A DNA stretch of 64,000 nt from contig NZ_KB911824.1 of NCBI RefSeq assembly GCF_000383675.1, positions 310,001 through 374,000 of the forward strand, given 5' to 3'. A program made the position numbers and the translations under genes. The stretch comes from Terracoccus sp. 273MFTsu3.1 (lineage in GTDB: Bacteria; Actinomycetota; Actinomycetes; Actinomycetales; Dermatophilaceae). The notes beneath the pieces are model-generated. The model was not told the origin of the DNA, made no database searches, and saw only the letters and a list, made by a program, of their open reading frames with translations. Below, in pieces: positions 1 to 63,544 of the stretch (its first letter is position 1; each line of letters starts with the position of its first letter).

Positions 1-642
1 CGGCAGGACGAGCGGGCCGTGGATCTCGTCGGAGATGACTCGGACGCCGTGCTCGTCGGCGACCCGCGCGAGGGCCGCCAGCTCGTCGGGCGTGTGCACC
101 GTGCCGGTCGGGTTGTGCGGGTTGGAGAGCAGGTAGACCGCGCGGTCGCCTCCGGCGGTCGCGTCGGCGAACCCGTCGGCGAGTCGGTCGAGGTCGAGCC
201 GGTGGTCGGGTCCGAGCGGCGCCTCGACGACCCGCCGTCCGCACGCCTCGATCACCTCGTAGAAGGCGTTGTAGACGGGCGGGCTCACGATCACCGGGCC
301 ACCGGGGTCGGTGAGGAGCCCGAGCAGGTGGGTCACACCGGTCAGCACGTCGGCCACGCGGGTCGTGCTGTCGTGGTCGAAGCGCCAGCCCCACTCCGCG
401 TCGGCGAACGCGGCGACCTCGGCGGCATACTCCTGCGTCAGGGCGTAGCCCGTGTCGCCCCGGGCCACGGCGGCGCTCACGGCGTCCACGACGGCGGTGC
501 ACGGCGCGCAGTCCATCTCGGCGATCCACATCGGGATGACGTCGGGCTCGTAGCGTCCCCACTTGACCGACGTGCGGTCGCGCCGCAGATCGGCCAGCGG
601 GACGTCGAAGATCGTCGCGCCGTCCGCGTGCCTCTCACCCAT
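1..642 (-). CDS. MalY/PatB-type PLP aminotransferase (C-terminus beyond window)
   Basis: This is the N-terminal 214 codons of a fold-type I PLP enzyme of the MalY/PatB group, which are cystathionine beta-lyases or aminotransferases acting on sulfur amino acids. The reverse strand stays open from the ATG at 642 to the window edge. It encodes WGRYEPDVIPMWIAEMD near the start, the classic N-terminus of this group, and SNPHNPTGTV at about residue 175, the cofactor-binding loop, followed by SDEIHGPLV. The catalytic lysine lies outside the window, so activity cannot be judged. The gene diverges from the EcsC-family gene that starts at 802. The precise substrate is unknown; a class I/II aminotransferase of different specificity is possible. 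Confidence 0.85.
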   Translation of the reverse strand, partial: MGERHADGATIFDVPLADLRRDRTSVKWGRYEPDVIPMWIAEMDCAPCTAVVDAVSAAVARGDTGYALTQEYAAEVAAFADAEWGWRFDHDSTTRVADVLTGVTHLLGLLTDPGGPVIVSPPVYNAFYEVIEACGRRVVEAPLGPDHRLDLDRLADGFADATAGGDRAVYLLSNPHNPTGTVHTPDELAALARVADEHGVRVISDEIHGPLVLP

Positions 643-801
643 GGGAGCGACCCTACGAGAGCGGGGCGACGTCGTCTCCCGCGGTCCCCGGCCGGCCCGA
701 CTGGGTACGAGGGTGCCACGAGCGACCCGGGCGGCATACGGTGTCGTCGGCGGCGAACCGACAGCCGCCACACAGGGACGACGGACGAAGGGGTGGAGCC
801 G

Positions 802-1557
802 GTGGGCATCTTGGGTTACGGCAGGGACGAGACCGTCGAGGCATCGGACGCGACCGCGGTGAGGCTGCGCACGGCGAAGGACGCCGGCGCGCTCGAGCGG
901 GCTGCCATGCCTGCCGAGGGAGGTCTCTCGGGAGCCGCGACCCGACTCGTCGAGCGTCTCCTCGACGTCGGCATCGACGGCAAGGGACCGTTCGACCCGG
1001 CCCACGAGATCGCCGCCAAGGCGCTCAAGCACGCCAGGGGCGACAGCGAGCAGGCGCTGCGGATCATCGTCCGCGACCACCGGCAGCTCGGCGCCATCGG
1101 CGGCTTCGCCACCGGCCTGGGCGGCTTCTTCACGATGCCCCTGTCCCTGCCGGCCAACGTGCTCGAGTTCTACCTGCTGGCCACCCGCATGACGGCGGCG
1201 ACGGCCAAGGTGCGCGGCTACGACATCGACCAGCCCGAGATCCGCTCGGCGATCCTGCTGACCCTCGCCGGCGCCGACAGCGACGACCTTCTCAAGAAGG
1301 CCGGTCTGCAGGCGGCCGGCGGCAAGCTGTCGTCCGTCGCCTTCGACCGGTTGCCTGCCCCGGCGCTCATGGTCCTCAACAAGGCCGTCGGCTTCCGCCT
1401 GCTCGGGCGCATCGGACAGGGGACCTTCGCCCGCCTCGGGCGCCTGGTGCCCGTCGTCGGTGGCCTCATCGGCGCTGCGGTCGACGTCTACATGCTGAAC
1501 CGCATCGGCAAGCAGGCGGCCAAGGAGTTCCCACCCGTCGAGACCTTCGGTCGCTGA
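802..1557 (+). CDS. EcsC family protein
   Basis: Predicted protein of 251 residues matching the EcsC family, whose biochemical role is not settled (named for a gene beside the EcsAB ABC transporter in Bacillus). Visible family features are HEIAAKALKHARGD, the glycine-rich hydrophobic segment IGGFATGLGGFFTMPLSLPA and the following helix NVLEFYLLATRMTAATAKVRG. I chose GTG 802 because a purine-rich GAAGGGG lies about 9 nt upstream and homology begins soon after. The frame is open much further upstream, to about position 19, but that part is the shadow of the divergent aminotransferase. The C-terminus has another hydrophobic glycine-rich stretch (VPVVGGLIGAAVDVYML), suggesting membrane association. 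Confidence 0.8.
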   Translation: MGILGYGRDETVEASDATAVRLRTAKDAGALERAAMPAEGGLSGAATRLVERLLDVGIDGKGPFDPAHEIAAKALKHARGDSEQALRIIVRDHRQLGAIGGFATGLGGFFTMPLSLPANVLEFYLLATRMTAATAKVRGYDIDQPEIRSAILLTLAGADSDDLLKKAGLQAAGGKLSSVAFDRLPAPALMVLNKAVGFRLLGRIGQGTFARLGRLVPVVGGLIGAAVDVYMLNRIGKQAAKEFPPVETFGR

Positions 1558-1660
1558 GCGACCGGCTGGGAAGGCTCACCGTGGGGAGCACGCAGATCGC
1601 GCTCGGCCGTCGCCGTCCGGGCCGGGGAATCGTGCGCGACGCCCGTTCGTTGGGCCGGGC

Positions 1661-2335
1661 ATGAAGCCCGCATCCCGGATCAAGATGGCCGCGACCGTCG
1701 CGTCGGTCGTGCGCGCCTCGACGCGCCCCGGCGCGCCCAGCCTGCCGGAGCGGCTGTCCGCCGTGCCGCGCCTGGTGCGCGCCACCGTGGACGGGACGTA
1801 TGCCGGCACGACCCTCAAGCGGCTCGGGCTCGTCGCTGGGGCGGTCGCCTATGTCGCCTCGCCCGTCGACCTGCTGCCCGAGGCGGTCCTGCCGGTCATC
1901 GGAGCGGCCGACGACGCCGTCGTCATCTCGTGGGCGGTCAAGGCCTTCTTCGAGGAGACCGAGCGCTTCATCGCCTGGGAGGTCGGTCAGGGTCTGCACC
2001 GCCCCCGGCCCCGGCGTGGCTCTGCGAGCTGGGCGCCCGGTGGAGACCGGGCGACCGAGGCGTCGCGCACGACGGTGCGCGGTGAGCCGGTCGCGGTGCC
2101 GGGCGATCCGGCGTCCCCGGCGTGGGACGGAGGGGCCGAGGGCGGGCTGCGCCGCGACCGCGACTCGACCGGGGCCGCCGCACCGGGCCGCATCGTCAGT
2201 CGGGTCACGCGCGCGAGGGGCAGGTCCACCGCGGGTGACGCGGGTCGTGACGACCGTGCCCGGCTTCCGGAGGGGACGCGCCAGGCCGCGACCGACTACG
2301 TCCTCGAGTCGGTGCGCAAACGCCTCGAGCGCTGA
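1661..2335 (+). CDS. YkvA family (DUF1232) protein
   Basis: Predicted protein of 224 residues. Residues about 45-105 contain the short YkvA/DUF1232 domain: YVASPVDLLPEAVLPVIGAADD is the typical signature, two hydrophobic helices around a P-x-D-L-L-P motif. The function of the family is unknown; members are usually small membrane-associated proteins. The C-terminal 115 residues are rich in Arg, Gly, Ala and Pro, look disordered, and end in a more ordered segment (YVLESVRKRLER). No strong ribosome binding site is seen at ATG 1661; ATG 1685 is an alternative start. Confidence 0.7.
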   Translation: MKPASRIKMAATVASVVRASTRPGAPSLPERLSAVPRLVRATVDGTYAGTTLKRLGLVAGAVAYVASPVDLLPEAVLPVIGAADDAVVISWAVKAFFEETERFIAWEVGQGLHRPRPRRGSASWAPGGDRATEASRTTVRGEPVAVPGDPASPAWDGGAEGGLRRDRDSTGAAAPGRIVSRVTRARGRSTAGDAGRDDRARLPEGTRQAATDYVLESVRKRLER

Positions 2336-4432: not shown

Positions 4433-5689
4433 ATGACCGTCACCCACCGGACGCAGAGCACCCGCCGCCGTGCGCGGCCCGGGGCCGCTGGCACCGGCCA
4501 GACCGGCGACCCGGCGACGAGGGACCGTGCGACGAGCCACGTCGACCCGACGACGCCGCAGTCCCACCGGCCCGACGGCGCCTGGCGTGACGGCGACCCG
4601 GTCGGCCGGCGGCAGTTCGCCCACGTCGGTGACGTCGAGCTCGAGCGCGGGGGAGTGCTGCCCGACGTCCGCATCGCCTACGAGACGTGGGGCCGGCTCA
4701 ACGAGGCCGGCGACAACGTCATCCTCGTCGAGCACGCACTGACCGGCGACAGCCACGTCATCGGTGAGGCCGGCGACGGACACGCCTCGCCCGGCTGGTG
4801 GAACGCCCTCATCGGGCCCGGCGGACCGGTCGACCCCGAGCGGTGGTTCGTCATCGCCTCCAACGTCCTCGGCGGGTGCCAGGGCAGCACCGGCCCCGCG
4901 AGCCCCGCGCCTGACGGTCGTCCCTGGGGCAGCCGTTTCCCCTACGTCACGGTCCGCGACCAGGTCGCCGTCGAGCGACGCCTCCTCGAGGGGCTCGGCA
5001 TCCGCCGCCTCGCGGCCGTCGTCGGCGGCTCGATGGGCGGGATGCGTGCGGTGGAGTGGGCCGTGACGCATCCCGACGACGTCGACCGCTGCATCGTGCT
5101 CGCGTCGACGGCATACGCGACCGCCGACCAGATCGCCTGGTGCCAGCCGCAGCTGCTGGCGATCCGCAACGACCCGGACTTCGCGGGAGGCGACTACTAC
5201 GAGGGCCACACGCGTCCCGACACCGGACTGGGCCTTGCCCGCCGGATCGCCCACATCACGTATCGCACCGAGACCGAGCTCGGCACCCGCTTCGGACGCG
5301 AGCCACAGCTCGGGGAGGACCCCCTGCGCGCGGGCGACCGCGGCCGCTTCGCGGTCGAGTCCTACCTCGACCACCACGCGGGCAAGCTGGCCCGGCGCTT
5401 CGACGCCAACTCCTACGTCGTGCTGACCGAGGCGATGAACTCGCACGACGTGGGCCGCGACCGCGGGGGGCTCGAGGCCGCCCTCGAGCGCGTCCGCGCC
5501 GAGTGCACCATCGTGTCGGTCGACACCGACCGCCTCTATCCGCCGCGACTCTCCGACGAGCTGCACGCCGCCCTGCCGCGGTCCCGGCGTGCGCACATCA
5601 CGTCGGAGTTCGGGCACGACGGCTTCCTCATCGAGGAGGACCAGGTGGGCCGCATCGTCCGTGACGCGCTCGAGCAGCGCCTCGACTGA
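4433..5689 (+). CDS. metX: Homoserine O-acetyltransferase
   Basis: Predicted protein of 418 residues, an alpha/beta-hydrolase-fold enzyme that acetylates homoserine from acetyl-CoA, committing it to methionine synthesis by direct sulfhydrylation. The nucleophile elbow is GGSMGGM; the acid and base fit VSVDTDRLYPP and EFGHDGF. The conserved EHALTGDSH and NVLGGCQGSTGP segments are present. ATG 4433 was preferred because AGGAG stands 7 nt upstream; the in-frame ATG at 4403 lacks one. Compared with the usual length near 370-380, there is a basic, probably disordered N-terminal extension of about 55 residues. The gene stands alone behind a SAM-IV riboswitch; no sulfhydrylase gene is adjacent. Confidence 0.95.
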   Translation: MTVTHRTQSTRRRARPGAAGTGQTGDPATRDRATSHVDPTTPQSHRPDGAWRDGDPVGRRQFAHVGDVELERGGVLPDVRIAYETWGRLNEAGDNVILVEHALTGDSHVIGEAGDGHASPGWWNALIGPGGPVDPERWFVIASNVLGGCQGSTGPASPAPDGRPWGSRFPYVTVRDQVAVERRLLEGLGIRRLAAVVGGSMGGMRAVEWAVTHPDDVDRCIVLASTAYATADQIAWCQPQLLAIRNDPDFAGGDYYEGHTRPDTGLGLARRIAHITYRTETELGTRFGREPQLGEDPLRAGDRGRFAVESYLDHHAGKLARRFDANSYVVLTEAMNSHDVGRDRGGLEAALERVRAECTIVSVDTDRLYPPRLSDELHAALPRSRRAHITSEFGHDGFLIEEDQVGRIVRDALEQRLD

Positions 5690-8281: not shown

Positions 8282-8338
8282 CGCGTCCGCGGTGTCCGTG
8301 CCCTCGGATGCCGCGTATGCCGTATGCGGTGTGCCGGC

Positions 8339-10648
8339 TCAGCGGCGCCGGGGGAGCAGGCGGTCCGGGAGCGAGCGCCAGAACGACACGCCCGCCTCAG
8401 GCCAGAAGAAGGACCGTGCCCGGGTCTGCCAGGCCCGGGTGCGACCGACCTGGCGCCGGATCGACCGGATGTCGTGGTGCAGCCGGAAGGCCTCCTGCGG
8501 CGTCGTGCGCTCGGGCCTGTCGTAGCGGGACTTCTCGAGAGTCGCCGTGACCCGTCGCATGGCGGTGGCGTTCTCCTCGTCGAGGTGCCCGTCGGTGACG
8601 TAGCGCTCGCGCAGCTGGCGCAGGGTGACGCCGTCGGGCGCGCTCAGCCCGAGGTCGCCGAAGTGCGAGGTGAGGTCGTCCCACTCGGCCTCGATGAGGT
8701 CCTGCTGGGTCACGGCGGCGCGCCGGCGACGCAGCCGGAGCAGCCAGGCCGTGATCGGCATCGCGAACGCCGCGAGCAGGCCGAGCGCCACGGCGAGGGC
8801 CAGCACGACGTTGCGCACGGTGAACGCGTGCCCGACGGAGTCGAGGAACGTCTCCTCCTGCTGCACGGGGGCTGCGGTCGCCGTCGTGGTCGAGCTCGTG
8901 GCCGAGGCCGTGCCGCTCGCGGTGTTCGTCTCGCTCACCTCGCGCCCACCGCCCGTCGGGCCGGAGCCCGCGCCGAGGACGGCATACGGCGGCGGCGAGC
9001 CCGCCCGGGCACCCGGGGTCGGCTCGAAGCGCAGCCAGCCGTAGCCCTGGAAGTAGAGCTCGGGCCACGCGTGGGCGTCGCTGGCGCGGACGACGTAGTG
9101 CTCGCCCGAGAGCTGGCCCGGGAGGAAGCCGATCGCCATGCGGGCCGGGATCCCCTGGGCCCGAGCGAGCATGATCATCGCCGTCGCGAACTGGACGCAG
9201 TAGCCGCGCCGGGTCTGGTAGAAGTTCTGGATCGGCTCGAGCAGGCGCCCCTGGCTGTCACGAAGCTGCTCGCCGAGGTCGAGGGAGTAGGTGTAGCGGC
9301 TCGTGTCGCGCAGGTGGTCCTGGATCGCGATCGCCTTGTCGAGCGGGTTGTCCGCGCCGCGGGTGACCTGGTCGGACCACTGCTGGATCAGGTCACGCGA
9401 GCGGTCCGGGATGGTGAGGTCGTCGTCGGTGATGTCCGGCGAGTCCGGGGCCCCGGACTCGCGCAGCTCCGGCGGTGACGGCGCGAGGTCGGCATACGTC
9501 ACCCGGTAGTTGCTCACCGCGCGGTCGACGCGGACGTCGCGCGTGACCGGGTCGATGCTCCACGGCGTGCCCTCCATCGCGACGGCGACGACGGGGTAGG
9601 GCGCCGCGATGCGGGGCGCGGCGAGGGTGTTGTCCGAGACGGTGATGACGTAGTCGCGTCGTTTGTCCGGCGGCGGCAGGGGAGACGCGTTGTCGGGACG
9701 GTCGCCGGTGGCGCCGGCGACGCTCCACTGCCCGCGGGAGTAGTACGAGGTCGCGAGCACCCGCAGGGGAGACCGCGTGAAGGCCGTCGTCGTGTAGGTC
9801 AGGACGGGCGACTGGTCCTGGTTGTTGAGGCTGCGCGAGAGGTCGAGCGTGTCGTTGAAGCCGACGGACCCCTCGCCGGCGCCGCCGCCCGACCGGCCGA
9901 GCCCCTCGGTGAGGTAGCGCGGTGGGAAGTGCGGGATGACGGCCGGCACGAGGAGGGCGACGACCACGCCGACGGCGCCGAGCTTGAGCGCCCCCGCCGT
10001 GAACGAGCGCAGGGCGTCGCGGTCGTGGGCGGCCTCGTCGATCTCGCTCTCGTCGGCCGCGCTGGCCGTGCCCCAGCGTCCGAACTGGGCCCGGGCGGTC
10101 GTGTGCAGCATGACGAGCCAGAGCACGACGGGCACGACGAAGAAGCGCAGCGCGAGGGCGGCGTCGCCGTTGGCCGCCGTGATGAGGTATGCCGTCAGCA
10201 GTGGCAGTCCCGCAGCAGCGGGGCTGCGCCACGTGGCGGCCATGGCGTCGACCGCGATGGCGACGAGTGCGACGGCGACGACGAGGCAGAACGTGATGCC
10301 GTCGTTGAGCGGCGCGGGGGCGGAGTAGCGGTTGATCGTCTCGAGGGCCTGCAGGCCAAGGCTGTTGGCCGCTTCGAGCGTCGCGGGTGTCGGCACGAAC
10401 AGGGTGAACGACTCACCGGTGTAGCGGGCGAGGATGACGTAGGCCGTCACGAGCACCTGGAGCAGGACGACGAGACCGCGCGAGCGGGTGAGGCCTCGGG
10501 CGACGAGGCCGAGGCCGGCGACGAGGGCGATGACGAAGGCCGCCTGCGGCAGCCACGTGGTCTCGACGAAGAGGCTCGTGATCGGGTAGACCGCGGCCAG
10601 GGTGGCGAGCGCGGCCAGGAGGGTGATCCTCCAGCGACGGCGGGTCAT
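8339..10648 (-). CDS. Membrane transglutaminase-like protein (TgpA/DUF3488 type)
   Basis: Predicted protein of 769 residues. The first about 260 residues hold several membrane helices (for example LLAALATLAAVYPITSLFV), followed by a large extracytoplasmic region with a transglutaminase core. The catalytic Cys is in RRGYCVQFATAMIMLAR (about residue 481) and the His in ASDAHAWPELYF (about 524). One more membrane helix (VLALAVALGLLAAFAMPI) and a cytoplasmic DUF4129-like tail complete it. Its ATG shares a 4-nt ATGA overlap with the stop of the DUF58 gene upstream, so moxR, DUF58 and this gene form an operon; this triad is widespread but its substrate is unknown. The frame is open further upstream to 11116, which is a shadow of the DUF58 gene. 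Confidence 0.88.
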   Translation of the reverse strand: MTRRRWRITLLAALATLAAVYPITSLFVETTWLPQAAFVIALVAGLGLVARGLTRSRGLVVLLQVLVTAYVILARYTGESFTLFVPTPATLEAANSLGLQALETINRYSAPAPLNDGITFCLVVAVALVAIAVDAMAATWRSPAAAGLPLLTAYLITAANGDAALALRFFVVPVVLWLVMLHTTARAQFGRWGTASAADESEIDEAAHDRDALRSFTAGALKLGAVGVVVALLVPAVIPHFPPRYLTEGLGRSGGGAGEGSVGFNDTLDLSRSLNNQDQSPVLTYTTTAFTRSPLRVLATSYYSRGQWSVAGATGDRPDNASPLPPPDKRRDYVITVSDNTLAAPRIAAPYPVVAVAMEGTPWSIDPVTRDVRVDRAVSNYRVTYADLAPSPPELRESGAPDSPDITDDDLTIPDRSRDLIQQWSDQVTRGADNPLDKAIAIQDHLRDTSRYTYSLDLGEQLRDSQGRLLEPIQNFYQTRRGYCVQFATAMIMLARAQGIPARMAIGFLPGQLSGEHYVVRASDAHAWPELYFQGYGWLRFEPTPGARAGSPPPYAVLGAGSGPTGGGREVSETNTASGTASATSSTTTATAAPVQQEETFLDSVGHAFTVRNVVLALAVALGLLAAFAMPITAWLLRLRRRRAAVTQQDLIEAEWDDLTSHFGDLGLSAPDGVTLRQLRERYVTDGHLDEENATAMRRVTATLEKSRYDRPERTTPQEAFRLHHDIRSIRRQVGRTRAWQTRARSFFWPEAGVSFWRSLPDRLLPRRR

Positions 10649-11889
10649 CGGCTGCCTCCCACGGTGGCGGCCGTCAGGACGGCCCAGACGTGCGCGACGT
10701 CCTCGTCGCGTTGGACCGACACGGCGCGCCAGCCCGCGAGGCGCAGCGAGTCGACGTGCGGCGCGGCCTCCTCGGCGTCGGTCGTGCCGAAGCTGCGGGC
10801 GTCGAGGACGAGCGCGAGGCCGGTGGTGCCGGGCTGGCGCAGGCTCGCCAGTCGGGACGTGATGTCGCGTCCGGACGGGCCGACGAGGGCCACGAGGAAA
10901 CCGCCGGCGGCCGCGAGGGCCTGCCCGGCGCGCAGGATCTCGTCCTCGCCGGTGTCGTCGCGCGGTGTCGCCACGGCGAGCACGTCGAGGATCTCCTCGG
11001 GCGTCATGGTCTCGGCCGCGCGGGAGGTCTCGACCGTCTCGGCGCAGACGAGGTGGACGGCATACCCCGAGTCGCACAGGTGGACCGCGATGGACGCGGC
11101 CGCGGTGATCGCCCACTCGAACGAGCTGCTCACTCCTGTGCCTCCGTGCGCGGAGGGTCGCGGGTCGATGAGCACGACGGCGCGACGCTGTGCGGGGCGG
11201 TCCTCCTGGCGCACCATGAGGTCGCCGGTGCGTGCGGTCGCCGGCCAGTGGATGCGGCGCAGGTCGTCGCCGTCGCGGTACTCGCGGATCGTGACGTCGT
11301 CCTCGCCGTGCAGCGCGATGAGGTGGGCCTGCTCGCCCTCGGAGCCGACCCCGGCGCTCGGCTGGCGGTTCGACGACAGCGGGTGCACGGCCGGCAGGAC
11401 GACGAGGTCGGCGGTGCCCTCGAGCACCGCGTTGCGGTTGGCGAGGCCGAACGGGTCCTGCACCTGGACCCCGAGGGGCCCGAGGTGGTGGCGTCCGCGC
11501 AGGTGGGAGCGCACGGCGTAGTCGATGGCCCGGACGCGGCCCGGCGGGATGCGGCCGACGACGAAGCGGGGACGGTCGCCCAGGACGTAGTCGAGCCGCT
11601 CCTCGGCGAGGAAGATCGGCGTGGTGTTCGTCGAGACGTTCTCGAACGACAGCGTGACGTGAGCGTCCTGACCGACGCTGATGCGCTCGGGGTGACTGTG
11701 CCGCTCGATGCGCATCCGCGTCTTGCGGGTGCGCACGAGGACGGCGGAGATGAGGGGGAGCGCGACGAGGAGCACGCCGAAGCGCGTGAGGTCGCGGAAG
11801 CCGAAGATGACCCCGGCGAGGACGAGGACCGCCCCCGAGCCCATGAAGGCCCGGCCCCTCGTCGTCAGGACGCTGCGCAGCGAGCGCAT
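10645..11889 (-). CDS. DUF58 domain protein
   Basis: Predicted protein of 414 residues. Two adjacent hydrophobic helices near the N-terminus (about residues 15-50, GSGAVLVLAGVIFGF and FGVLLVALPLISAVLV) anchor it. A central beta-rich region leads to the DUF58 signature REYRDGDDLRRIHWPATAR at about residue 210, followed by a vWA-like fold beginning RRAVVLIDPRP. DUF58 proteins are thought to act with MoxR ATPases as substrate or scaffold partners. It lies between moxR (16-nt gap) and the transglutaminase gene (4-nt overlap), supporting joint function. The molecular role is not established. Confidence 0.87.
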   Translation of the reverse strand: MRSLRSVLTTRGRAFMGSGAVLVLAGVIFGFRDLTRFGVLLVALPLISAVLVRTRKTRMRIERHSHPERISVGQDAHVTLSFENVSTNTTPIFLAEERLDYVLGDRPRFVVGRIPPGRVRAIDYAVRSHLRGRHHLGPLGVQVQDPFGLANRNAVLEGTADLVVLPAVHPLSSNRQPSAGVGSEGEQAHLIALHGEDDVTIREYRDGDDLRRIHWPATARTGDLMVRQEDRPAQRRAVVLIDPRPSAHGGTGVSSSFEWAITAAASIAVHLCDSGYAVHLVCAETVETSRAAETMTPEEILDVLAVATPRDDTGEDEILRAGQALAAAGGFLVALVGPSGRDITSRLASLRQPGTTGLALVLDARSFGTTDAEEAAPHVDSLRLAGWRAVSVQRDEDVAHVWAVLTAATVGGSR

Positions 11890-14274: not shown

Positions 14275-15285
14275 ATGAGCGATCGAGGACAGGCGCAGGA
14301 GCGTCACGTCCCCGTCATGCGCGACCGGATCCTCGAGCTGCTCGCCCCCGCGCTGGAGCGGCCGGGTGCGGTGCACGTCGACGGCACGCTCGGCATGGGT
14401 GGCCACGCCGAGGGCGTCCTCGAGCGCTTCCCCGACTGCACCGTGGTCGGCATCGACCGCGACCGTGAGGCCCTGGCCCTGGCGGGGGAGCGACTCGCCC
14501 GGTTCGGCGACCGCTTCCGCCCGGTGCACGCCGTCTACGACGACATCAAGGAGGTCGTCGCCGACCTCGACGTGCCCGCGGTCGACGGCATCCTCTTCGA
14601 CCTCGGCGTCAGCTCGCTCCAGCTCGACGAGGCCGACCGTGGCTTCGCCTACCGGGTGGACGCGCCGCTCGACATGCGCATGGACCAGTCGACGGGGCAG
14701 ACCGCCGCCGACGTGCTCAACACCTACTCGGTCGATGACCTCACGCGTATCCTGCGCGACTACGGCGAGGAGCGCTACGCGCGCAAGATCGCCAAGGCCG
14801 TCGTGCAGGACCGCGCGATCGAGCCGTACACCTCGTCCGGTCGCCTCGTCGACATGCTGCGCCGCGTCATCCCGGCCGCCTCGCAGCGACAGAGCGGCCA
14901 CCCGGCCAAGCGCACCTTCCAGGCTCTGCGGATCGAGGTCAACGACGAGCTAGAGGTGTGGCGCCGCGCCATCGACGAGGCGATCGACGTCCTCGCGGTC
15001 GGCGGCCGGATCGCGGTCCTGTCCTACCACTCCCTCGAGGACCGGGCGACGAAGCGGGCCTTCGCCGCCGGCGCCACGTCCAGCACCCCGGCCGGCCTGC
15101 CGGTCGAGCTCGCCGAGCACGCGGCATACCTCTCCCTCGTCACCCGAGGCGCCGAGGCGCCCGGCGACGACGAGGTCACCACGAACCCGCGGGCCGCCTC
15201 GGCCCGACTTCGCGTCGCAGAGCGCGTGCGCGACACCTCCACGCACACCTCAGCCAGCAGGACCAGGAAGGGACCCACCCGATGA
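14275..15285 (+). CDS. rsmH: 16S rRNA m4C1402 methyltransferase RsmH (MraW)
   Basis: Predicted protein of 336 residues that N4-methylates C1402 of 16S rRNA using S-adenosylmethionine. Typical motifs are [17 protein letters not shown] at the N-terminus, the SAM-binding [34 protein letters not shown] and [13 protein letters not shown]. The length is normal for the family. ATG 14275 is the natural start. The stop overlaps the ftsL-like ATG by 4 nt (ATGA), implying translational coupling. Second gene of the dcw cluster, after an unusually long gap from mraZ. Confidence 0.96.
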
Positions 15286-19859: not shown

Positions 19860-21277
19860 TCGCCTTGTCCCTCAGCGAGATCCGCGACCTCACCGGAGGC
19901 GTTGTCCACGGCACCGATGCGCCTGAGGCGGTCGTCGTCGACGGCCCGGTGTCCACGGACTCCCGCGAGTGCGGGCCGGGGAGCCTCTACGTCGCGCGGG
20001 TCGGCGAGACGGCCGACGGGCACGACTTCGTGGCTGCAGCCGTCGCGGCGGGAGCGGTAGCAGCCCTCACCTCGCGTCCGGTCGACGGCGTGCCGTGCGT
20101 CGTCGTCGACGACGTCCAGACGGCCTTCGGGCGGGTCGCCCGCGGGGTCGTCGACCGTGCTCCCGAGCTGCGCGTCGTGGGCATCACCGGCTCGTCGGGC
20201 AAGACCAGCGTCAAGGACCTCCTCGCGTCCGTGCTGTCGTCGGTCGCCGAGACGGTCGCGCCGGTCAACTCGCTCAACGGTGAGATCGGCGTGCCGCTCA
20301 CGGTGTGCCGAGTCACCCCGACCACCCGCTTCCTCGTCGCCGAGATGGGCGCCCGGGGCATCGGCCACATCGACTACCTCACGCGCATCGCACCGCCGCA
20401 GGTCGCGATCGTGCTCAACGTCGGCACTGCCCACATCGGCGAGTTCGGGTCGCGCGAGAACATCGCGCGCGCCAAGTCCGAGCTGCCGATGGCGGTCCCC
20501 GCCGAGGGGCTGTCGATCCTCAACGCGGACGACCCCGTCGTGGCCGCCATGGCCTCCGGCGTCGCGTCCCGGGTCCAGCTCGTCGGGCTCTCGCCCGAGG
20601 CGGACGTCCGTGCCGAGGACGTCACCCTCGACGAGCGCGGGAGGGCGGCATACACCCTCGTCAGCCCGCAGGGCTCGGCCCGGGTCTCCTTGCGCCAGAG
20701 CGGCGCCCACCACGTCGGCAACTCTCTCGCGGTCGCCGCGGCGGCGCTCGAGCTCGGACTGTCGCTCGACCAGGTCGTGGCCGGCCTCGGCGCTGCCGAG
20801 GCCGTGAGCCGGTGGCGGATGGAGATCACCGACCGGCCCGACGGCGTGGTCGTCGTCAACGACGCCTACAACGCCAACCCCGACTCCATGCGTGCCGCGC
20901 TCGACGCCGTCGCTGCCATGCACGTGACGGGGGAGCGCTGGGCCGTCCTCGGGGGCATGCTCGAGCTCGGCCCCGACAGCGACGCCGAGCACGCAGCCGT
21001 CGGGTCGTATGCCGCGTCGCGCGGTTTCGAGCACGTCGTGGCCGTCGGCGAGGGGGCCCGTCCGCTCGCCGAGGCCGTCCCCGGCTCGGAGTGGGTGCCC
21101 GACACCGACGCCGCCCACGACCTGCTCGCCGCGCGCGTCCGCGCCGGCGACGTCGTCCTGCTCAAGTCGAGCCGGGACAGCGGACTGCGCTGGCTCGGCG
21201 ACCGCCTCGCCTCCGAGGGTGGCGCGAGCACCACCACACCCGTCCCCACGACCTCCGGAGAGGCGGTCTCGCGGTGA
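19856..21277 (+). CDS. murF: UDP-MurNAc-tripeptide-D-Ala-D-Ala ligase MurF
   Basis: Predicted protein of 473 residues that adds D-Ala-D-Ala, the last step of cytoplasmic muropeptide assembly. The ATP-binding loop is [20 protein letters not shown], and [10 protein letters not shown] and [17 protein letters not shown] are characteristic. It starts at GTG 19856, overlapping the murE stop by 4 nt, and its own stop overlaps the mraY start by 4 nt. No D-Ala-D-Ala ligase gene lies in this window. Confidence 0.95.
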
Positions 21278-48827: not shown

Positions 48828-48833
48828 GGCGCC

Positions 48834-49250: not shown

Positions 49251-49264
49251 CCGGGGCCGCGACC

Positions 49265-49270: not shown

Positions 49271-49276
49271 GCCCGG

Positions 49277-51376
49277 ATGCAGCACCCCCCGACCGCTCGG
49301 CGCGATCCCGTCGCCCGCGAGCACCACGGCGACCGTTTCGACGACCCCTACGCGTGGATGGCCGACCGTGACTCGGACGAGCTGCGCGAGCTGCTCGTGG
49401 CCGAGAACGCCCACGCGACCGAGCGCACCGAGCACCTGCGACCGCTCGCCGAGCAGGTCTTCGAGGAGTTCCGCTCGCGCATCGAGGAGACCGACCTGTC
49501 GGTGCCCGTTCGTCACGACCGCTGGTGGTACTACTCACGCACGGTCGAGGGCGAGCAGTACGCGGTCGAGGCGCGGGTGCTCGTCGCCGACCACCCGCAG
49601 CGGCCGACCCTCGACGCCGGGCGCCCGCCGGTCGGCGAGCAGGTGCTGCTCGACCAGAACGAGGAGGGCCGGGACCACGAGTTCTTCGCCGTGGGCGTGA
49701 GCGAGGTGTCGCCGTCCGGCGACCTGCTCGCGTATGCCGTCGACGTCGTCGGCGACGAACGCTACGACGTGCGCGTGCGCCGGATCGACGACGGAGTCGT
49801 CCTCGACGACACCGTGCGCCGCACCGGCGGGTCGTTCGCCTGGTCACTCGACGCCGGTCACTTCTTCTACACGCGCGTCGACGACGCCTGGCGTCCGCAC
49901 CAGGTGTGGCGTCACGAGGTGGGCACTCCCGCTGAGGCCGACGTGCTCGTGCACGAGGAGGCCGACGAGCGCTTCTTCGTCGGGGTCGGCACCTCGCGCG
50001 ACGACCGGCTGATCATCATCGCCATCGGGTCCAAGACGACGAGCGAGTTCCGCCTCCTCGAGGCCGACGACCCGATGGGCACCCCCCGGGTCGTGGCCGA
50101 ACGCCGCCAGGGCGTCGAGTACGACATCGAGCCCTTCGGCGACCAGCTGCTCGTCACGCACAACGCCAACCGCGTGAACTTCGAGCTGGCCACGGCTCCC
50201 GTGACGAGCACGACGGCGGACGACTGGGTGCCGCTGGACGTCACGACGGAGGACGAGTACGTCACGGGCGCAGAGGGATTCGACGACTTCATCGCTGTCT
50301 CGCTACGTCGGGAGGGCGGCACCGGAGTGCGGGTCGTACTGCGCGACCCGACCGCCCCGAACGGTCTGGGGGAGGCGCACGACATCGCCGTCGGGGAACC
50401 CATCGGCACGCTCCACGTCGGCGTGAACCCCGAGGCGGACACACCGACGCTCCAGGTCGTCCACGAGTCTCTCGTGACGCCCCGGACCGTGGAGGACTAC
50501 GACGTCCGCTCCCGCACCTTCACGCTGCTCAAGCAGCAGCACGTGCGCGGCGACGTCGATCTGGCGCAGTACCGCCAGCGACGCGAGTGGGCCACGGCGC
50601 CCGATGGGACCCGCGTGCCGATCTCCGTCGTGCACCGCCACGACGTCGCGGCCGACGGCACGGCTCCCGGGCTGCTCAACGCGTACGGCGCCTACGGCAT
50701 CTCGAGCGACCCGTGGTTCTCCGTCCTGCGACTCTCGCTCCTCGACCGCGGCTGGGTCTTCGCCATCGCTCACGTGCGCGGTGGGTCCGAGATGGGGCGG
50801 TCGTGGTACGACGACGGCAAGCTCGAGGCGAAGCCCAACACGTTCACCGACCTCGTCGCGTGTGCGGACCACCTCGTCGAGAGCGGCATCGTCGCGCCGG
50901 ACCGACTTGCGGCAGAAGGCGGCTCGGCGGGCGGTCTGCTCATGGGGGCCGTGGTCAACCTTGCCCCGGAGCGCTTCCGCTTCGTCCACGCGCAGGTGCC
51001 GTTCGTCGACGCGCTGACGACCGTGCTCGATCCCAGCCTGCCGCTCACCGTCGTCGAGTGGGAGGAGTGGGGCAACCCGCTCGAGGACCCGACGGCATAC
51101 GCGCTCATGAGGTCCTACAGCCCCTACGACAACGTCCGGCCGACCCGCCACCCCAGCCTGCTCGTGACGGCGGGCCTCGACGACACGCGCGTCTACGTCA
51201 CGGAGCCGGCCAAGTGGGTCGCCGCGTTGCGGCATGCCGACCTCGAGGTGGACGACCCCGCGCAGATCCTCTTCCGCACCGAGATGGCGGCGGGCCATGG
51301 TGGCCGGTCCGGGCGCTACGACCTCTGGCGCCAGTGGGCCTGGGAGACGGCCGTGCTCATCGACCAGACGTCGTGA
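49277..51376 (+). CDS. S9 family peptidase, oligopeptidase B type
   Basis: Predicted protein of 699 residues with an N-terminal seven-bladed beta-propeller and a C-terminal alpha/beta-hydrolase domain. The catalytic serine is in AEGGSAGGLLMGAVVN (about residue 551), the aspartate in AGLDDTRVYVTEPAKW (about 634) and the histidine in MAAGHGGRSG (about 673). AHVRGGSEMGRSWYDDGK is characteristic of oligopeptidase B, which cuts short peptides after basic residues. No signal peptide is present, so it acts in the cytoplasm. Confidence 0.92.
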   Translation: MQHPPTARRDPVAREHHGDRFDDPYAWMADRDSDELRELLVAENAHATERTEHLRPLAEQVFEEFRSRIEETDLSVPVRHDRWWYYSRTVEGEQYAVEARVLVADHPQRPTLDAGRPPVGEQVLLDQNEEGRDHEFFAVGVSEVSPSGDLLAYAVDVVGDERYDVRVRRIDDGVVLDDTVRRTGGSFAWSLDAGHFFYTRVDDAWRPHQVWRHEVGTPAEADVLVHEEADERFFVGVGTSRDDRLIIIAIGSKTTSEFRLLEADDPMGTPRVVAERRQGVEYDIEPFGDQLLVTHNANRVNFELATAPVTSTTADDWVPLDVTTEDEYVTGAEGFDDFIAVSLRREGGTGVRVVLRDPTAPNGLGEAHDIAVGEPIGTLHVGVNPEADTPTLQVVHESLVTPRTVEDYDVRSRTFTLLKQQHVRGDVDLAQYRQRREWATAPDGTRVPISVVHRHDVAADGTAPGLLNAYGAYGISSDPWFSVLRLSLLDRGWVFAIAHVRGGSEMGRSWYDDGKLEAKPNTFTDLVACADHLVESGIVAPDRLAAEGGSAGGLLMGAVVNLAPERFRFVHAQVPFVDALTTVLDPSLPLTVVEWEEWGNPLEDPTAYALMRSYSPYDNVRPTRHPSLLVTAGLDDTRVYVTEPAKWVAALRHADLEVDDPAQILFRTEMAAGHGGRSGRYDLWRQWAWETAVLIDQTS

Positions 51377-52899: not shown

Positions 52900-54267
52900 A
52901 TGATGTCCTCCCTCGACCTGCGCGGGCGCACGCTCGACGTGCGCTTCCTGCGCAAGGCCCTGCCACGAGCCGAGTTCGACGTCACGGCAGCCCTCGAGCA
53001 GGTGCGGCCGATCTGTGAGGACGTCGAGCATCGCGGGGCCGTGGCACTGCGCGACCTCGGCGAGCGGTTCGACGGCGTGCGGCCGACCCACCTCCGGGTG
53101 CCGCGGGCCGTGCTGCAGTCCGCCCTCGACCGGCTCGACCCCGACCTGCGCGCCGCGCTGGAGGAGTCCATCCGTCGCGCCCGCATCGTCCACGCGGACC
53201 AGCGCCGTACCGACACGACGACCCCGGTCGTCCCGGGCGGCACCGTCACCGAGCGATGGGTGCCCGTCGACCGCGTCGGTCTCTATGTGCCCGGTGGCCT
53301 CGCCGTCTACCCGAGCAGCGTCATCATGAACGTCGTCCCGGCCCAGCTCGCCGAGGTCGGTTCGCTGGCCGTCGCGTCACCGCCGCAGCGCGAGAACGTC
53401 GGCGAGTTCGCCGGCTACCCGAACCCGACGATCCTGGCGGCGTGCGCACTCCTCGGCGTCGACGAGGTGTATGCCGTCGGTGGCGCCCAGGCGGTCGCCA
53501 TGTTCGCGCACGGCTTCGTCGACGACGACCCGAAGTGGGGCGAGGTCGACGGCGAGCCGGTCGTGTGCGACCCCGTGTCGCTCGTCACGGGCCCCGGCAA
53601 CATCTGGGTCGTCGCCGCCAAGCGCCTGCTCAAGGGCCTCATCGGCATCGACGCGGAGGCCGGTCCCACCGAGATCGCGATCCTGGCCGACGACTCGGCC
53701 GACCCGGACCACGTGGCCGCCGACCTCGTGAGCCAGGCCGAGCACGACCCGCTCGCGGCCTCGGTGCTCGTCACCGACAGCGAGGAGCTGGCCGAGGAGA
53801 CCCGTCGCGCCCTGGCCCGTCGGGTGCCGGCCACGAAGCACGCGGAGCGCGTCACCGAGGCGCTCGAGGGCACGCAGTCGCGCATCGTCCTCGTCGACGA
53901 CGTCGACGCCGGTCTCGCCGTCGTCAACGCGTACGCCGCCGAGCACCTCGAGATCCAGACCCGCGACGCCGCGGGCGTCGCGGCCCGGGTCCGCAACGCC
54001 GGTGCCGTCTTCGTCGGTCCGCACAGCCCGGTGAGCCTCGGCGACTACGCCGCCGGCTCCAACCACGTCCTGCCCACCGCCGGCTGCGCCTGCCACTCGA
54101 GCGGGCTGTCGGTGCAGTCCTTCCTGCGCGGCATCCACGTCGTCGACTACGACGAGGCCGCCCTGCGCGGTGTCGCCCGCCACGTCGTGACTCTGGCCCA
54201 GGCCGAGGACCTCCCGGCCCACGGCGAAGCCGTGACGGCGCGGTTCGGCGACGAGGTGCCCCGGTGA
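52900..54267 (+). CDS. hisD: Histidinol dehydrogenase
   Basis: Predicted protein of 455 residues catalysing the last two oxidations, histidinol to histidine. Family segments are [73 protein letters not shown], and [37 protein letters not shown] lies near the end. The start is ATG 52900 or the adjacent in-frame ATG 52903. Its stop overlaps hisC by 4 nt, heading a hisD-hisC-hisB-hisH operon. Confidence 0.96.
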
Positions 54268-55445
54268 GCGACGGACCGACCGACCGGCCGAGCGCCGCCG
54301 ACGAGGTCCAGCGTCTGCTCCGGCCCGACCTGCGCGGTCGCACACCGTACGGCGCGCCGCAGCTCGACGTGCCGGTCCGGCTCAACACCAACGAGAACTC
54401 CTACCCCGTGCCGCAGGTCGTCGTCGACGCCGTCGTCGAGGCGCTCGCCGACGACGTCGCCTCCCTCAACCGTTACCCCGACCGCGAGTTCACCGACCTG
54501 CGCAAGGCCCTGACGGCATACCTCGAGAAGCAGTCGGGGGTGTCGGTGACGCCCGAGCAGGTGTGGGCCGGCAACGGCTCCAACGAGGTGCTCTCGCACA
54601 TCGTGCAGGCCTTCGGAGGTCACGGCCGGGTCGCCCTCGGCTTCACGCCGAGCTACTCGATGCACCCCATCATCAGCGAGACGCACGGCACGACATGGGT
54701 CGACGGGCTCCGCTCTGCCGCAACCGATCCCGATGCCTTCGACCTGACCGCTGAGTCGGCTGCCCAGCAGGCCCGAGCGCACGACCCGTCGATCGTGTTC
54801 CTCTGCTCGCCCAACAACCCCACGGGCACGGCGCTGCCGTTCGAGGTCATCGGTGCCGTGCTCGAAGCGGCGCCGAACGCCGTCGTCGTCGTCGACGAGG
54901 CCTATGCCGAGTTCGCCCGGCCGGGCACGCGAACGGCACTGACGCTGCTCGCCGAGCACCCCAGGCTCGTCGTGACGCGCACGATGAGCAAGGCGTTCGC
55001 CTTCGCCGGCGGACGCCTCGGCTACCTCGTGGCGGCCCCCGAGCTCGTCGACGCGCTGCGCCTCGTCCGGCTGCCCTACCACCTGAGCAGCCCGACGCAG
55101 ACGATCGCCCGCATCGCCCTCGAGCACGCCGACGTCATGCTCGGCACGGTCGAGGTCATCAAGCACCAGCGCGACCGGATCGTCGACCGTCTCACCGAGC
55201 TCGGCGCGCGCCCCGTCGCCAGCGACAGCAACTTCGTCCTCTTCGGCGGCCTCCGCGACGAGAAGGCCACGTGGGACGCCCTGCTCGACGAAGGCGTCCT
55301 GGTCCGCGACATGGGCATCGCCCACCACCTGCGCGTCACGGCGGGCGACGCCCACGAGACGACAGCGTTCCTCGAGGCCATGACGCGCCTCGCCCCCGCC
55401 CACATCCTCCCCAGCAGCGCCGACCGGCAGGAGCCACCCGCATGA
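54264..55445 (+). CDS. hisC: Histidinol-phosphate aminotransferase
   Basis: Predicted protein of 393 residues, a PLP-dependent enzyme. It shows [50 protein letters not shown] and the PLP-lysine loop [22 protein letters not shown] 54264 overlaps hisD by 4 nt; the long upstream frame is shadow. The stop overlaps hisB by 4 nt (ATGA). Confidence 0.96.
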
Positions 55446-57260: not shown

Positions 57261-58220
57261 TCAGACCGGGATGTCGCCGCCACGATCCGGGTCGACGCCC
57301 CAGAGCCGGGCGACGTGCGAGGCGTCGGTGCCACAGCACCCTCCGACGACCGTGACGCCCGGGACCCGTCCGACCACCAGGTCGTGCCCCGCCGAGATGG
57401 TGTCGAGGTCGCCCGCGTCCAGGTCGTCGGCGTCGTCGAGCTCCGCATGGCTGCGCGTCGAGGTGTTGTAGCGCAGCCCGAGCAGCCTGCTGCGCCAGGC
57501 GCTCCCGTCGTCAGCGGCATCCAATCCTGCGAGCACGTGTTCCGGGTGGGCGCAGTTGACGAGGTAGTAGTCCGGTGCCTCCCGCTCGTCGACCTCGGTG
57601 ATCGTCTCGGCCAGCGTCGTCCCGTCGGGAAGCCGCCCGTCGACCTCCACCGTGAACGAGATCGCCACGGGCAGCCCCAGCTCCCGGCACGACTGCGCGA
57701 TCCCGATCGCCTCGCCCGCGGTGGTGAGGGTGTAGGCCGTGACGACGTCGGCGCCCGCCTCGGCGAACGCCGCCACCTGGGCGTGGTGGTAGTCCGCAGC
57801 CTCGGCCGGGTTCGGCGCACCGGCACTGCGGTAGCCGTCGCCCCGTGGGCCCACCACCCCCACGACGACGACGTCCTGCAGCCCGAGCTCGACGGCATAC
57901 CGGCGACGCAGCGACCGGAGCAGGTCGACGGCGTCGGCGTTGGCACGGTCGAGGTCGGTCGTCGAGTGGCCGAGCCGCCCGCCCCAGTCCGGGTTGGCAC
58001 GCCACGTCGGTGACTCGAGGAGCAGGCCCGCCCCGGCTCGCGCGGCGATGGAGGCGTACGCGTCGTAGTAGCCCGTGAGCAGCTCGCGGCCGGCCGCGTC
58101 ACCGAGCAACGGGTATGCGGCGAAGTCCTGGAGCTCGACGCCGTGGTTGAAGATGAGGTCGGTCTCCAGGCCACCGTCCGTCACCATCGGCCGACCGGCC
58201 AGCTGTGGCAGGTGATGCAT
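57261..58220 (-). CDS. Homocysteine S-methyltransferase (MmuM/BHMT family)
   Basis: Predicted protein of 319 residues that transfers a methyl group, probably from S-methylmethionine or a betaine, to homocysteine. The N-terminus has VTDGGLETDLIFNHGVELQD. Zinc-binding cysteines fit YYLVNCAHPEHVLAGL and TVVGGCCGTDASHVARL. GGGAG lies 6 nt before ATG 58220. It points against the his genes on both sides and splits hisH from priA. Methyl donor cannot be assigned. Confidence 0.9.
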   Translation of the reverse strand: MHHLPQLAGRPMVTDGGLETDLIFNHGVELQDFAAYPLLGDAAGRELLTGYYDAYASIAARAGAGLLLESPTWRANPDWGGRLGHSTTDLDRANADAVDLLRSLRRRYAVELGLQDVVVVGVVGPRGDGYRSAGAPNPAEAADYHHAQVAAFAEAGADVVTAYTLTTAGEAIGIAQSCRELGLPVAISFTVEVDGRLPDGTTLAETITEVDEREAPDYYLVNCAHPEHVLAGLDAADDGSAWRSRLLGLRYNTSTRSHAELDDADDLDAGDLDTISAGHDLVVGRVPGVTVVGGCCGTDASHVARLWGVDPDRGGDIPV

Positions 58221-58478
58221 GACGGCTCCCGTGCGTCGCGAGGTTCGGGTCCCCCCGGTGTACCAGACACGACCACGGGGCACGAGCAGAACGCCGGGAG
58301 GGCGACCGCGCCGGGGTGGGCGCGCGATCCACGGACGGACACGCCAGGAGCCGCGCCGCAGGCACACGGCATACTCGGTTGGTCGCACGTCCGGGGTCCC
58401 GCGCCCGGACACACCTGACACCGACCACCACACCGACCACGACCGCGACGGCCGTGACCGACCCGAGGAGCCGACCCG

Positions 58479-62037: not shown

Positions 62038-62049
62038 CAAGGAGCCTCG

Positions 62050-62478
62050 ATGAGCACCATCACCCAGACCGCCCAGTACGTCGCCTCGGCCACCGCCTCC
62101 GGACGTGAGGGCCGTGCCGTCACGTCGGACGGTCGCCTCGACGTCACGCTCGCCGCCCCCCGCGAGCTCGGCGGCAGCGGGGAGGGCACGAACCCGGAGC
62201 AGCTCTTCGCCGCCGGGTATGCCGCCTGCTTCGCGAGCGCTCTCGGGCTCGTCGCGCGCAAGCGCCGCGTCGAGGACTTCGACGTCGCCGTGACCGCGGA
62301 CGTCAGCCTCTCCGGCTCGTCGGGCACCGGCTTCGGCCTCGGGGTCGTGCTCCACGTCGAGCTGCCCGAGGGCCTCGACCCGCAGCTGGCCCGCGAGCTC
62401 GTCGACACGGCTCACCAGGTGTGCCCCTACTCCAACGCGACGCGCGGCAACATCCCGGTCGAGATCGTCGTCGACTGA
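62050..62478 (+). CDS. ohr: Organic hydroperoxide resistance protein Ohr
   Basis: Predicted protein of 142 residues, a thiol peroxidase of the OsmC/Ohr family that reduces organic hydroperoxides. The two redox cysteines are Cys60 (FAAGYAACFASALGLVA) and Cys125 (HQVCPYSNATRGN). TSDGRLDVTLAAPRELGG is also conserved. AGGAG precedes ATG 62050. It is divergent from ohrR, a well-known pair. Confidence 0.95.
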   Translation: MSTITQTAQYVASATASGREGRAVTSDGRLDVTLAAPRELGGSGEGTNPEQLFAAGYAACFASALGLVARKRRVEDFDVAVTADVSLSGSSGTGFGLGVVLHVELPEGLDPQLARELVDTAHQVCPYSNATRGNIPVEIVVD

Positions 62479-62542
62479 CGTCACCCGACCCCAGCCGCAT
62501 CGCACCAGAACTGCCAGAACCGCTGTCCCAGAAGGAGACCCG

Positions 62543-63544
62543 ATGACCAACCCCCGTGAGGTCCAGCTCGTCCGCCGCCCCGTCGGCTGGCCCACCCCTG
62601 ACGACTTCGCCCTCGTCGAGAGCGCGCCCGTCGACCTCGCCGATGGCTGGGTCCGCGTCCGCAACGAGGTCATGTCGGTCGACCCGTACATGCGTGGTCG
62701 CATGAGCGACGCCAAGTCCTACGCGGAGCCGTACGCACTGGGCGAGGCCATGCACGGCGGTGCGGTCGGCGTCGTCACCGAGTCGCGGGCCGACGGCGTC
62801 GCCGTCGGTGACCACGTGCTCCACGGCCTCGGCTGGCGCGAGGAGGCCGTCGTCGACGGCTCCGCCGTCCGTGTCGTCGACACGTCGGTGGCCCCGGCCT
62901 CCGCCTACCTCGGCGTGCTCGGCATGACCGGCCTCACGGCATACGCCGGCCTGACCCGTGTCGCGCAGCTCAAGGAGGGGGACGTCGTCTTCGTCTCCGG
63001 CGCGGCCGGGGCCGTCGGGAGCGTCGTCGGCCAGGTGGCCAAGGCGCTGGGCGCGAGCCGGGTCATCGGCAGCGCCGGCTCGCAGGAGAAGGTCGACCAC
63101 CTGCTGGACGACCTCGGCTTCGACGCCGCGTTCAACTACAAGGACGGCCGCGTCTCCGACCTGCTCCGAGAGGCCGCGCCCGACGGTGTCGACGTCTACT
63201 TCGACAACGTCGGCGGCGACCACCTCGAGGCCGCCATCGGTTCGCTGCGGCTCGGTGGCCGCATCGCGATCTGCGGCGCGATCTCGGTCTACAACAACAC
63301 CGAGCCGGCCCCTGGCCCGCGCAACCTCGCGCGCCTCATCCAGACCCGCGGCACGATCACGGGCTTCCTCGTCGGCGACCACTGGGACCTCGCGGGCGAG
63401 TACGCCCAGCGCGCGGCCGGCTGGATCGCGGACGGCACGTTGACCTCGCGCGAGACGTTCGGCGACGGGATCGACCACGCGGTCGACGCCTTCCTCGGCG
63501 TCCTGCGGGGCGAGAACGTCGGCAAGATGGTCGTCCGCCTCTGA
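62543..63544 (+). CDS. Zinc-independent NADP-dependent oxidoreductase (MDR/PTGR-like)
   Basis: Predicted protein of 333 residues of the medium-chain reductase group lacking zinc ligands (leukotriene B4 dehydrogenase or CurA-like). SVDPYMRGRM, GMTGLTAYAGL, the NADP loop VSGAAGAVGSVVGQVAKALG and VDVYFDNVGGDHLEAAI are diagnostic. AAGGAG precedes ATG 62543. It follows ohr by 64 nt and may be co-expressed in detoxification of lipid-derived enals, an inference. Confidence 0.9.
   Translation: MTNPREVQLVRRPVGWPTPDDFALVESAPVDLADGWVRVRNEVMSVDPYMRGRMSDAKSYAEPYALGEAMHGGAVGVVTESRADGVAVGDHVLHGLGWREEAVVDGSAVRVVDTSVAPASAYLGVLGMTGLTAYAGLTRVAQLKEGDVVFVSGAAGAVGSVVGQVAKALGASRVIGSAGSQEKVDHLLDDLGFDAAFNYKDGRVSDLLREAAPDGVDVYFDNVGGDHLEAAIGSLRLGGRIAICGAISVYNNTEPAPGPRNLARLIQTRGTITGFLVGDHWDLAGEYAQRAAGWIADGTLTSRETFGDGIDHAVDAFLGVLRGENVGKMVVRL

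Follow-up and report, generated by a model that had tools for sequence, protein, structure and literature searches.

What keeps a single eight-base word in place along a bacterial chromosome in numbers which low-order base statistics do not predict? The question is raised by a stretch of 64,000 nucleotides of Terracoccus sp. 273MFTsu3.1 (positions 310001-374000 of contig C5 in genome G000, which comprises 4.94 Mb in 18 contigs), here called the window, i.e. the whole piece of DNA that was analysed. A reading of the letters alone had reported at least 28 copies of the heptamer GGCATAC or its complement in this window, 26 of them extending to the octamer CGGCATAC, at about 72% GC. Recounting gave the same picture: the heptamer occurs 28 times (16 on the plus and 12 on the minus strand), 26 of these copies (16 plus, 10 minus) extend to CGGCATAC, the 23 positions given in that sequence-only reading all lie among the recounted sites, and the measured G+C content is 71.8%. 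As judged from genome comparisons, the non-palindromic word CGGCATAC is probably a DNA uptake sequence. As such it would mark self DNA in natural transformation, and a ComEA/ComEC–Tad system would use it in a directional manner.

Markov models of order 1, 2 and 3 predict 0.7, 0.8 and 1.4 copies of CGGCATAC in the window versus the 26 observed; a maximal-order model predicts 26, because its sub-words are built from the motif itself. The strong over-representation claimed before is thus confirmed, and it extends to a fresh 400 kb of G000 beyond the window, where 200 copies were found versus 9.2 expected (order 3) and where CGGCATAC and words overlapping it come top in rankings for k = 6 to 10. 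A genome-wide count and a comparison with close relatives, both suggested earlier as checks, came out in favour of the finding: G000 holds 2,244 copies (1,111 plus, 1,133 minus) versus 141 plus and 116 minus for the pattern read backwards, and all nine Terrabacter genomes, G000 included, carry 1,423 to 2,358 copies in a set of 58 relatives. The resulting density (2,244 in 4.94 Mb) agrees with the roughly 0.5-2 per kb typical of uptake sequences. In Terrabacter the consensus extends to ACGGCATACG, with the preceding A in 52% and the following G in 65% of the sites.

Most of the sampled copies lie in genes, where their number depends on synonymous codon choice. In a coding sample of 464 kb of G000 (the window and 20 further stretches), in which a crude gene caller recognized 329 genes with 78% coverage, 163 of 226 sites were located wholly within called genes and occupied all six combinations of frame and orientation (83, 51, 13, 8, 4 and 4 copies). 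Synonymous codon shuffling within genes reduced the 163 coding copies to 13.7 (sd 3.2, maximum 21, 50 shuffles), a removal of 92% which rules out codon usage as the cause. Codon context carries the same imprint, as 91 of 139 TAT codons are followed by GCC and 13 of 26 ATA codons stand directly after GGC. Third bases are conserved accordingly, namely that of TAT in 33/40 cases within the motif versus 6/35 elsewhere, that of ATA in 12/14 versus 0/5 and that of GCA in 22/33 versus 251/581. When the window was compared with five Terrabacter genomes (84-94% identical), its sites were conserved in 81 of 110 comparisons versus 11,047 of 20,347 for anagram 8-mers. The density of 0.57 copies per kb outside called genes versus 0.45 inside is a soft figure, since the crude caller misses genes. 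CGGCATAC is maintained as DNA rather than as protein, and in this sense the earlier statement that selection acts on DNA is borne out by shuffling, third-base conservation and the anagram comparison alike; the cause may be selection or a drive by biased recombination, the present data fitting either.

Distribution, dialects and inverted pairs

Genomes with at least 400 copies of CGGCATAC were regarded as motif-rich. In the sampled family, which we take to be GTDB Dermatophilaceae including Intrasporangiaceae, 106 of 186 genomes from 53 surveyed genera are rich, and at least 26 genera have rich members; among the 58 relatives, copy numbers go up to 4,724 in 4.2 Mb (G015). Other families of the order (22 genomes) hold only 2 to 167 copies each. 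In a sample of 296 genomes across the phylum, the only rich ones are three members of the family (0/293 others), and the top count outside it, 386 in a genome of 7.5 Mb, stands beside a reversed control of 176. Motif richness is hence confined to one family within the genomes sampled. Inside rich genera, single species stand out by low counts, namely G065 with 37 copies versus 1,251-1,660 in sister species, G126 with 19 versus 3,681 and 1,062 in its congeners, and G150 with 50 versus 394 to 1,901 in the other 30 genomes of its genus. These gaps suggest that individual species have lost the motif, relatedness being handled by a per-genus count only.

In some genera, CGGCATAC is replaced by a one-base variant, as was revealed by sampling 60-80 kb per motif-poor genus. 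CGGCATCC reached 85 copies versus 9.3 expected in the sample of G034, and genome counts of this word are 3,949 in G034 and 3,816 in G024 versus 253 to 1,548 in the remaining 56 genomes. CGGCGTAC occurs 58 times versus 8.7 expected in 80 kb of G031, weak signs of a dialect were seen in G027 and G032, and stretches of motif-poor G126 gave 19 copies of CGGCGTAC versus 7.3 expected; no comparable replacement word appeared in the sample of G065. Across the three words, the dialect core is CGGC-[AG]-T-[AC]-C. Flanks vary by genus as well: Intrasporangium calvum (G023) uses AGCGGCATACGG, and at a locus of I. calvum PheN6 six of six copies read AGCGGCATAC. G055, from another family of the order, has 1,548 copies of CGGCATCC versus 184 reversed, the top value of the 22 genomes from outside the family and possibly a related signal. 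In G031 (L122-L125), the 9-mers CACGGCCTA, ACCGTCGAA, ACGGTCACG and AGTTCGACG also stand out and are perhaps a repeat family.

A minority of the copies form inverted pairs of the type GTATGCCG-(2 to 24 bases)-CGGCATAC. There are 34 such pairs in G000 (about 3% of copies), 12-38 in each of the nine Terrabacter genomes, 32 in G023, 53 in G025, 62 in G015 and 64 in G029; altogether, they are present in 24 of 58 genomes and absent in 34, with reversed controls giving 0 to 2. Many of the pairs listed are perfect hairpins, above all in G023, and the three close inverted pairs of the G000 sample all lie outside called genes.

Orientation-specific spacing of the copies

The two orientations had been described as balanced (16 to 12). 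Overall this holds, as there is no global strand bias (1,111 versus 1,133 copies in G000; 127 versus 103 when strands are assigned by GC skew), but locally the arrangement is non-random, since copies tend not to lie close to others of their own orientation. Among neighbouring sites in G000, 138 of 205 are in opposite orientation; after removal of hairpin pairs and addition of two stretches, the figure is 135 of 205 versus 105.6 (sd 6.6) on shuffling of orientations within each stretch, and none of 2,000 shuffles reached it. Ten other genera were pooled; five Terrabacter relatives, sampled in stretches orthologous to the window, were left out for that reason, and G020 with its five sites was dropped. 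This pool gave 152 of 254 opposite neighbours (6/2,000 shuffles), the dialect genera gave 90 of 155 (128/2,000 shuffles), and single genomes reached 32/44 (G015) and 27/42 (G012). In the five excluded Terrabacter genomes, the proportions are 25/35, 23/37, 19/29, 23/34 and 15/28.

The alternation of neighbours arises because same-orientation copies repel each other at distances up to about 1 kb. Copies of opposite orientation are placed independently. In G000, only 20 same-orientation pairs lie less than 1 kb apart versus 50.2 simulated, and opposite pairs at this distance number 55 versus 54.2. The pool of ten other genera behaves likewise (same 60 versus 92.5, opposite 104 versus 98.3), as does the CGGCATCC dialect of G034 and G024 (same 32 versus 49.2, opposite 49 versus 52.6). 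Along the plus strand of contig 1 (367 kb), 12 close same-orientation pairs were counted versus 25.9 expected, a value as low being reached in 2 of 2,000 simulations. When 363 G000 octamers of similar abundance, among them the motif, were compared, the same-orientation deficit was seen only in the motif (ratio 0.35) and in the overlapping word CGTATGCC (0.38), the next one following at 0.61. From this repulsion we infer that the motif acts with direction and with a reach of about a kilobase.

The uptake reading and its rivals

A machinery that could read such a tag is present in these genomes. In G000, comEA (helix-hairpin-helix, SLBB) overlaps comEC. Loss of ComEC or ComEA was rejected as the cause of motif loss, as both are kept in motif-poor genomes (ComEC in 57 of 58 relatives, ComEA in 19 of 19 genomes searched). 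Pfam matches in a tad cluster of G000 at L275:6925-11745 comprise TadA (T2SSE), TadB (T2SSF), TadE1 (TadE) and a TadG-like protein (Tad), and TadC, a small Flp-like pilin and a second TadE-like protein were assigned there by position and eye. An additional Flp-type cluster in L276 has one TadE match, its remainder being judged by eye. Type IVa pili were discarded as the uptake machine because no type IVa (N_methyl) pilin match was obtained in G000; such matches are present in 2 of 36 family genomes searched. A Tad/Flp pilus would have to take over the role of a ComP-like type IVa minor pilin.

Motif richness is associated with the tad ATPase TadA across the family. With absence of an orthologue defined as a best E above 1e-57 or no hit, a cut-off that was set after the values were known, none of the 11 genomes without a TadA orthologue is rich versus 92 of 152 others among genomes at least 90% complete (Fisher p = 7e-5). 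The eight hits that fell in the range from 1e-58 to 1e-96, 6 of them in rich and 2 in poor genomes out of 186, were counted as present. Counted per genus, 0 of 6 versus 26 of 42 have a rich member (p = 0.006; genera are not independent), and omission of the completeness filter gives 1/16 versus 105/170 rich genomes. A search for the TadE family, matched in 56 of 58 relatives, gave no distinction between rich and poor genomes. Motif-poor G126 keeps tadABC, and Flp2, TadE1, TadE2 and TadG were not found in the next 8 kb, the stretch to which the search was limited; all four are present in the motif-rich congener G127. It thus seems that the tad locus is required in the long run without being sufficient.

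Three functions had been suggested for the word at the outset: a methylation target, a DNA uptake signal and a nucleoid-protein site. Uptake is the best of them because of the restriction to one family, the dialects, the hairpin pairs and the absence of rich genomes among the 11 without a TadA orthologue. Competent cells of the family would prefer tagged DNA, and the tag would accumulate through uptake-biased recombination. The tag may be read by ComEA or, at the surface of the Tad/Flp pilus, by Flp2, TadE1, TadE2 or TadG. The bound motif would start uptake in one direction, with single-stranded DNA entering ComEC from one side of the motif, and would serve the DNA on this side for about 1 kb. 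A nearby second motif of the same orientation would then add little, and one of opposite orientation would serve the other direction. Under such entry from one side, a new copy would be favoured only where a stretch lacks a same-orientation copy, and in this way an alternating orientation pattern would be written into the chromosome.

Known uptake sequences offer both parallels and differences. The DNA uptake sequence (DUS) of Neisseriaceae exists in thousands of copies and in eight dialects, which differ by lineage but share a CTG core, and five genomes of this family are without an obvious DUS (PMC3630211). CGGCATAC resembles the DUS, whose reader is the type IV minor pilin ComP, as a short word with thousands of copies and lineage dialects; it differs in its high-GC Gram-positive host without a type IVa pilin match in G000, in its core, in a spacing enforced only among same-orientation copies, and in that uptake is a proposal here. 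In Pasteurellaceae, the uptake signal sequence (USS) is described as numbering hundreds to thousands of copies that show no orientation bias in general (PMC2346458), with about 10% of the copies in inverted repeats (PMC1939737) and with two dialects (PMC12616744). Copy number, overall strand balance, an inverted-pair minority and dialects are therefore common to both words. USS uptake is reported as independent of orientation and position, and the same paper cites significantly even USS spacing from others but itself judges the evenness weaker (PMC1939737); CGGCATAC is read here as directional. Natural transformation of Micrococcus luteus depends on Flp/Tad pili, and the genes recognized for it are those of ComEA, ComEC and DprA together with two tad clusters (PMC4322843). 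Terrabacter is similar in having comEA, comEC, a tad cluster and a Flp-type cluster. The excerpts of PMC4322843 and PMC8467076 mention no uptake sequence or uptake signal.

Several observations weigh against an uptake function. Directionality would be new, because uptake in H. influenzae is reported to be independent of motif orientation (PMC1939737). The dialect screen detected no comparable word in the samples of eight motif-poor genera (G009, G010, G014, G016, G017, G018, G021 and G022), and 16 of 42 tad-bearing genera are without a CGGCATAC-rich member, three of these 16 holding a dialect genome (G024, G031 and G034). Conversely, TadA gave no better than a paralogue-level hit in G138 (73% complete), a rich genome and the single such case in the unfiltered count. 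Motif-poor G065 and G150 keep the pilin genes, and beside tadABC of dialect-rich G034 only the end of TadG was found; either the break in G034 is recent, or the adjacent pilins are not the motif reader. As to spacing, G011 (10/21 opposite neighbours) and G019 (28/54) show no alternation when taken alone, the orientation rule does not hold for CGGCGTAC in G031 (same 13 versus 19.1, opposite 10 versus 20.0), and at 50 sites of contig 1 beyond the sampled stretches the repulsion is merely a trend (7 versus 11.7; 258/3,000 simulations). The tad locus of G034 additionally contains, where the pilin genes would sit, an open reading frame (ORF) of 375 amino acids at L303:4131-5258 on the minus strand, which consists of tandem peptide repeats (DWQRQLFQKPLVP...) and resembles a repetitive precursor peptide gene.

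If CGGCATAC does serve uptake, it might constitute a third, independently evolved uptake-sequence system, the first in Gram-positives, spanning at least 26 genera and at least three dialects, read by a Tad/Flp pilus and directional; this wider proposal is made tentatively and with less confidence than the uptake function itself. DNA discrimination of this kind is known in only two families, both proteobacterial (PMC12616744), transformation has been little studied in actinobacteria (PMC8467076), and the portion of the open-licence literature that was searched yielded no description of a comparable actinobacterial motif. Such a third case, from a remote phylum with a single membrane, would mean that genome self-tagging evolves repeatedly, and the tag would record which actinobacteria transform in nature. 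At the same time, orientation-specific spacing would allow the polarity of DNA uptake and its reach to be deduced from nothing but sequence, and the old question of the purpose of uptake sequences would become testable in soil bacteria.

The main rivals are an asymmetric methylation mark and a Chi-like action by another nuclease, either of which would give per-strand spacing. In the former, an orphan methyltransferase would modify the asymmetric word on one strand, and the marks would help to tell the strands apart or have some other epigenetic function, as has been suggested for cyanobacterial HIP1. Since each strand would need its own marks, spacing within each orientation and same-strand repulsion would be accounted for, and HIP1, which is tied to methyltransferases, is likewise a highly iterated octamer, with alternates in other lineages that have matching methyltransferases (PMC4390886). 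HIP1 is a palindrome, however, unlike CGGCATAC, and the tad association and the hairpins would be left unexplained, so that a methylation mark is considered unlikely.

Chi sites are over-represented octamers active in one orientation. In a Chi-like scheme, a helicase-nuclease that enters from DNA ends, be it AdnAB or a different enzyme of the RecBCD type, would be tamed by one orientation of the motif, and both orientations would be required so that ends from either side get repaired. The orientation-specific spacing of about 1 kb suits such a polar end-processing signal, as does an eight-base non-palindromic word. Nevertheless, this explanation is unlikely as well. No RecC match was obtained in G000, for which RecBCD-Chi was rejected, or in seven of eight other Terrabacter genomes, and the sole RecC-bearing one (G001) has a similar motif load of 2,024 copies. 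Unlike in Chi, no clear leading-strand bias or replication polarity is seen: by the rough proxy of GC skew in 20- to 64-kb pieces, 127 sites lie on the G-rich versus 103 on the C-rich strand and strand excess correlates with GC skew at 0.35 over 23 pieces. Hairpin pairs, individual species without the motif in otherwise rich genera, and the restriction of richness to one family would also be unexpected for a housekeeping repair signal.

A nucleoid-protein, replication or transcription-terminator site would agree with the regular spacing and with the three close hairpin pairs outside called genes in the G000 sample. It is very improbable, given that the 34 inverted pairs make up only 68 of 2,244 copies, that 163 of 226 sites fall entirely within called genes and represent all six frame and orientation classes, that no clear strand polarity is seen and that the word is absent from single species of rich genera. 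The idea that codon usage, mutation bias or sequencing adapters produced the signal as an artefact deserves practically no credence: although the Illumina P7 adapter contains ACGGCATACG, identical to the extended consensus, adapter contamination is ruled out by diverse flanks and by orthologous sites common to several species, synonymous shuffling abolishes 92% of the coding copies, and the 106 rich genomes of 186 in the family have flanks differing by genus. The adapter match is a coincidence and as such a trap for adapter trimming and motif literature searches.

Sites and reading frames in the window

Conservation of the individual window sites is given below as the number of aligned Terrabacter relatives in which a site is kept. 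On the plus strand, CGGCATAC occupies 423..430 (GGC ATA frame), 732..739, 5109..5116 (kept in 0/4), 8980..8987 (5/5), 9490..9497 (1/5), 11058..11065 (5/5), 15122..15129 (4/5), 20646..20653 (5/5), 22682..22689 (GGC ATA frame; 3/5), 31639..31646 (GGC ATA frame; 4/5), 41885..41892 (inside a dnaE-like gene; 2/5), 51093..51100 (2/5), 54514..54521 (outside called genes; 5/5), 57893..57900 (1/2), 58367..58374 (2/2) and 62937..62944 (4/4). The minus-strand copies are located at 1798..1805, 8315..8322 (outside called genes), 10187..10194 (3/5), 21007..21014 (5/5), 25911..25918 (outside called genes; 4/5), 30374..30381 (5/5), 37139..37146 (CGG CAT frame; 3/4), 49732..49739 (5/5), 53469..53476 (4/5) and 62217..62224 (4/4). 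The heptamer GGCATAC alone occurs at 17169..17175 and 39167..39173, both on the minus strand. Among the reading frames proposed from the letters, GGC-ATA at 22683 and 31640 and CGG-CAT at 37139 agree with the gene calls. The copy at 58368, taken to be intergenic, is covered by a called ORF on the minus strand (57264-58865), so that the crude gene call contradicts this assignment.

Of ten large ORFs of the window scanned against Pfam, seven gave matches, all to ordinary core genes (a sigma-70 factor, a penicillin-binding protein, MraY- and MurG-like proteins, a DnaE-like protein, an aminotransferase and DUF4192). Two long ORFs overlap in antisense, one of 1526 amino acids at 45267-49847 on the minus strand and one of 1139 at 45318-48737 on the plus strand, and one of them is probably spurious; the minus-strand member has no Pfam match. 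Finally, two further words are enriched in G000. CAAGGGCAA/TTGCCCTTG is a second enriched word of the 400-kb sample (L009-L028), with 22 copies versus 0.8 expected, and CACGTGAAA/TTTCACGTG occurs 11 times in 80 kb (L009, L014, L019 and L024) versus 0.1 expected, possibly as a regulator site or a repeat.

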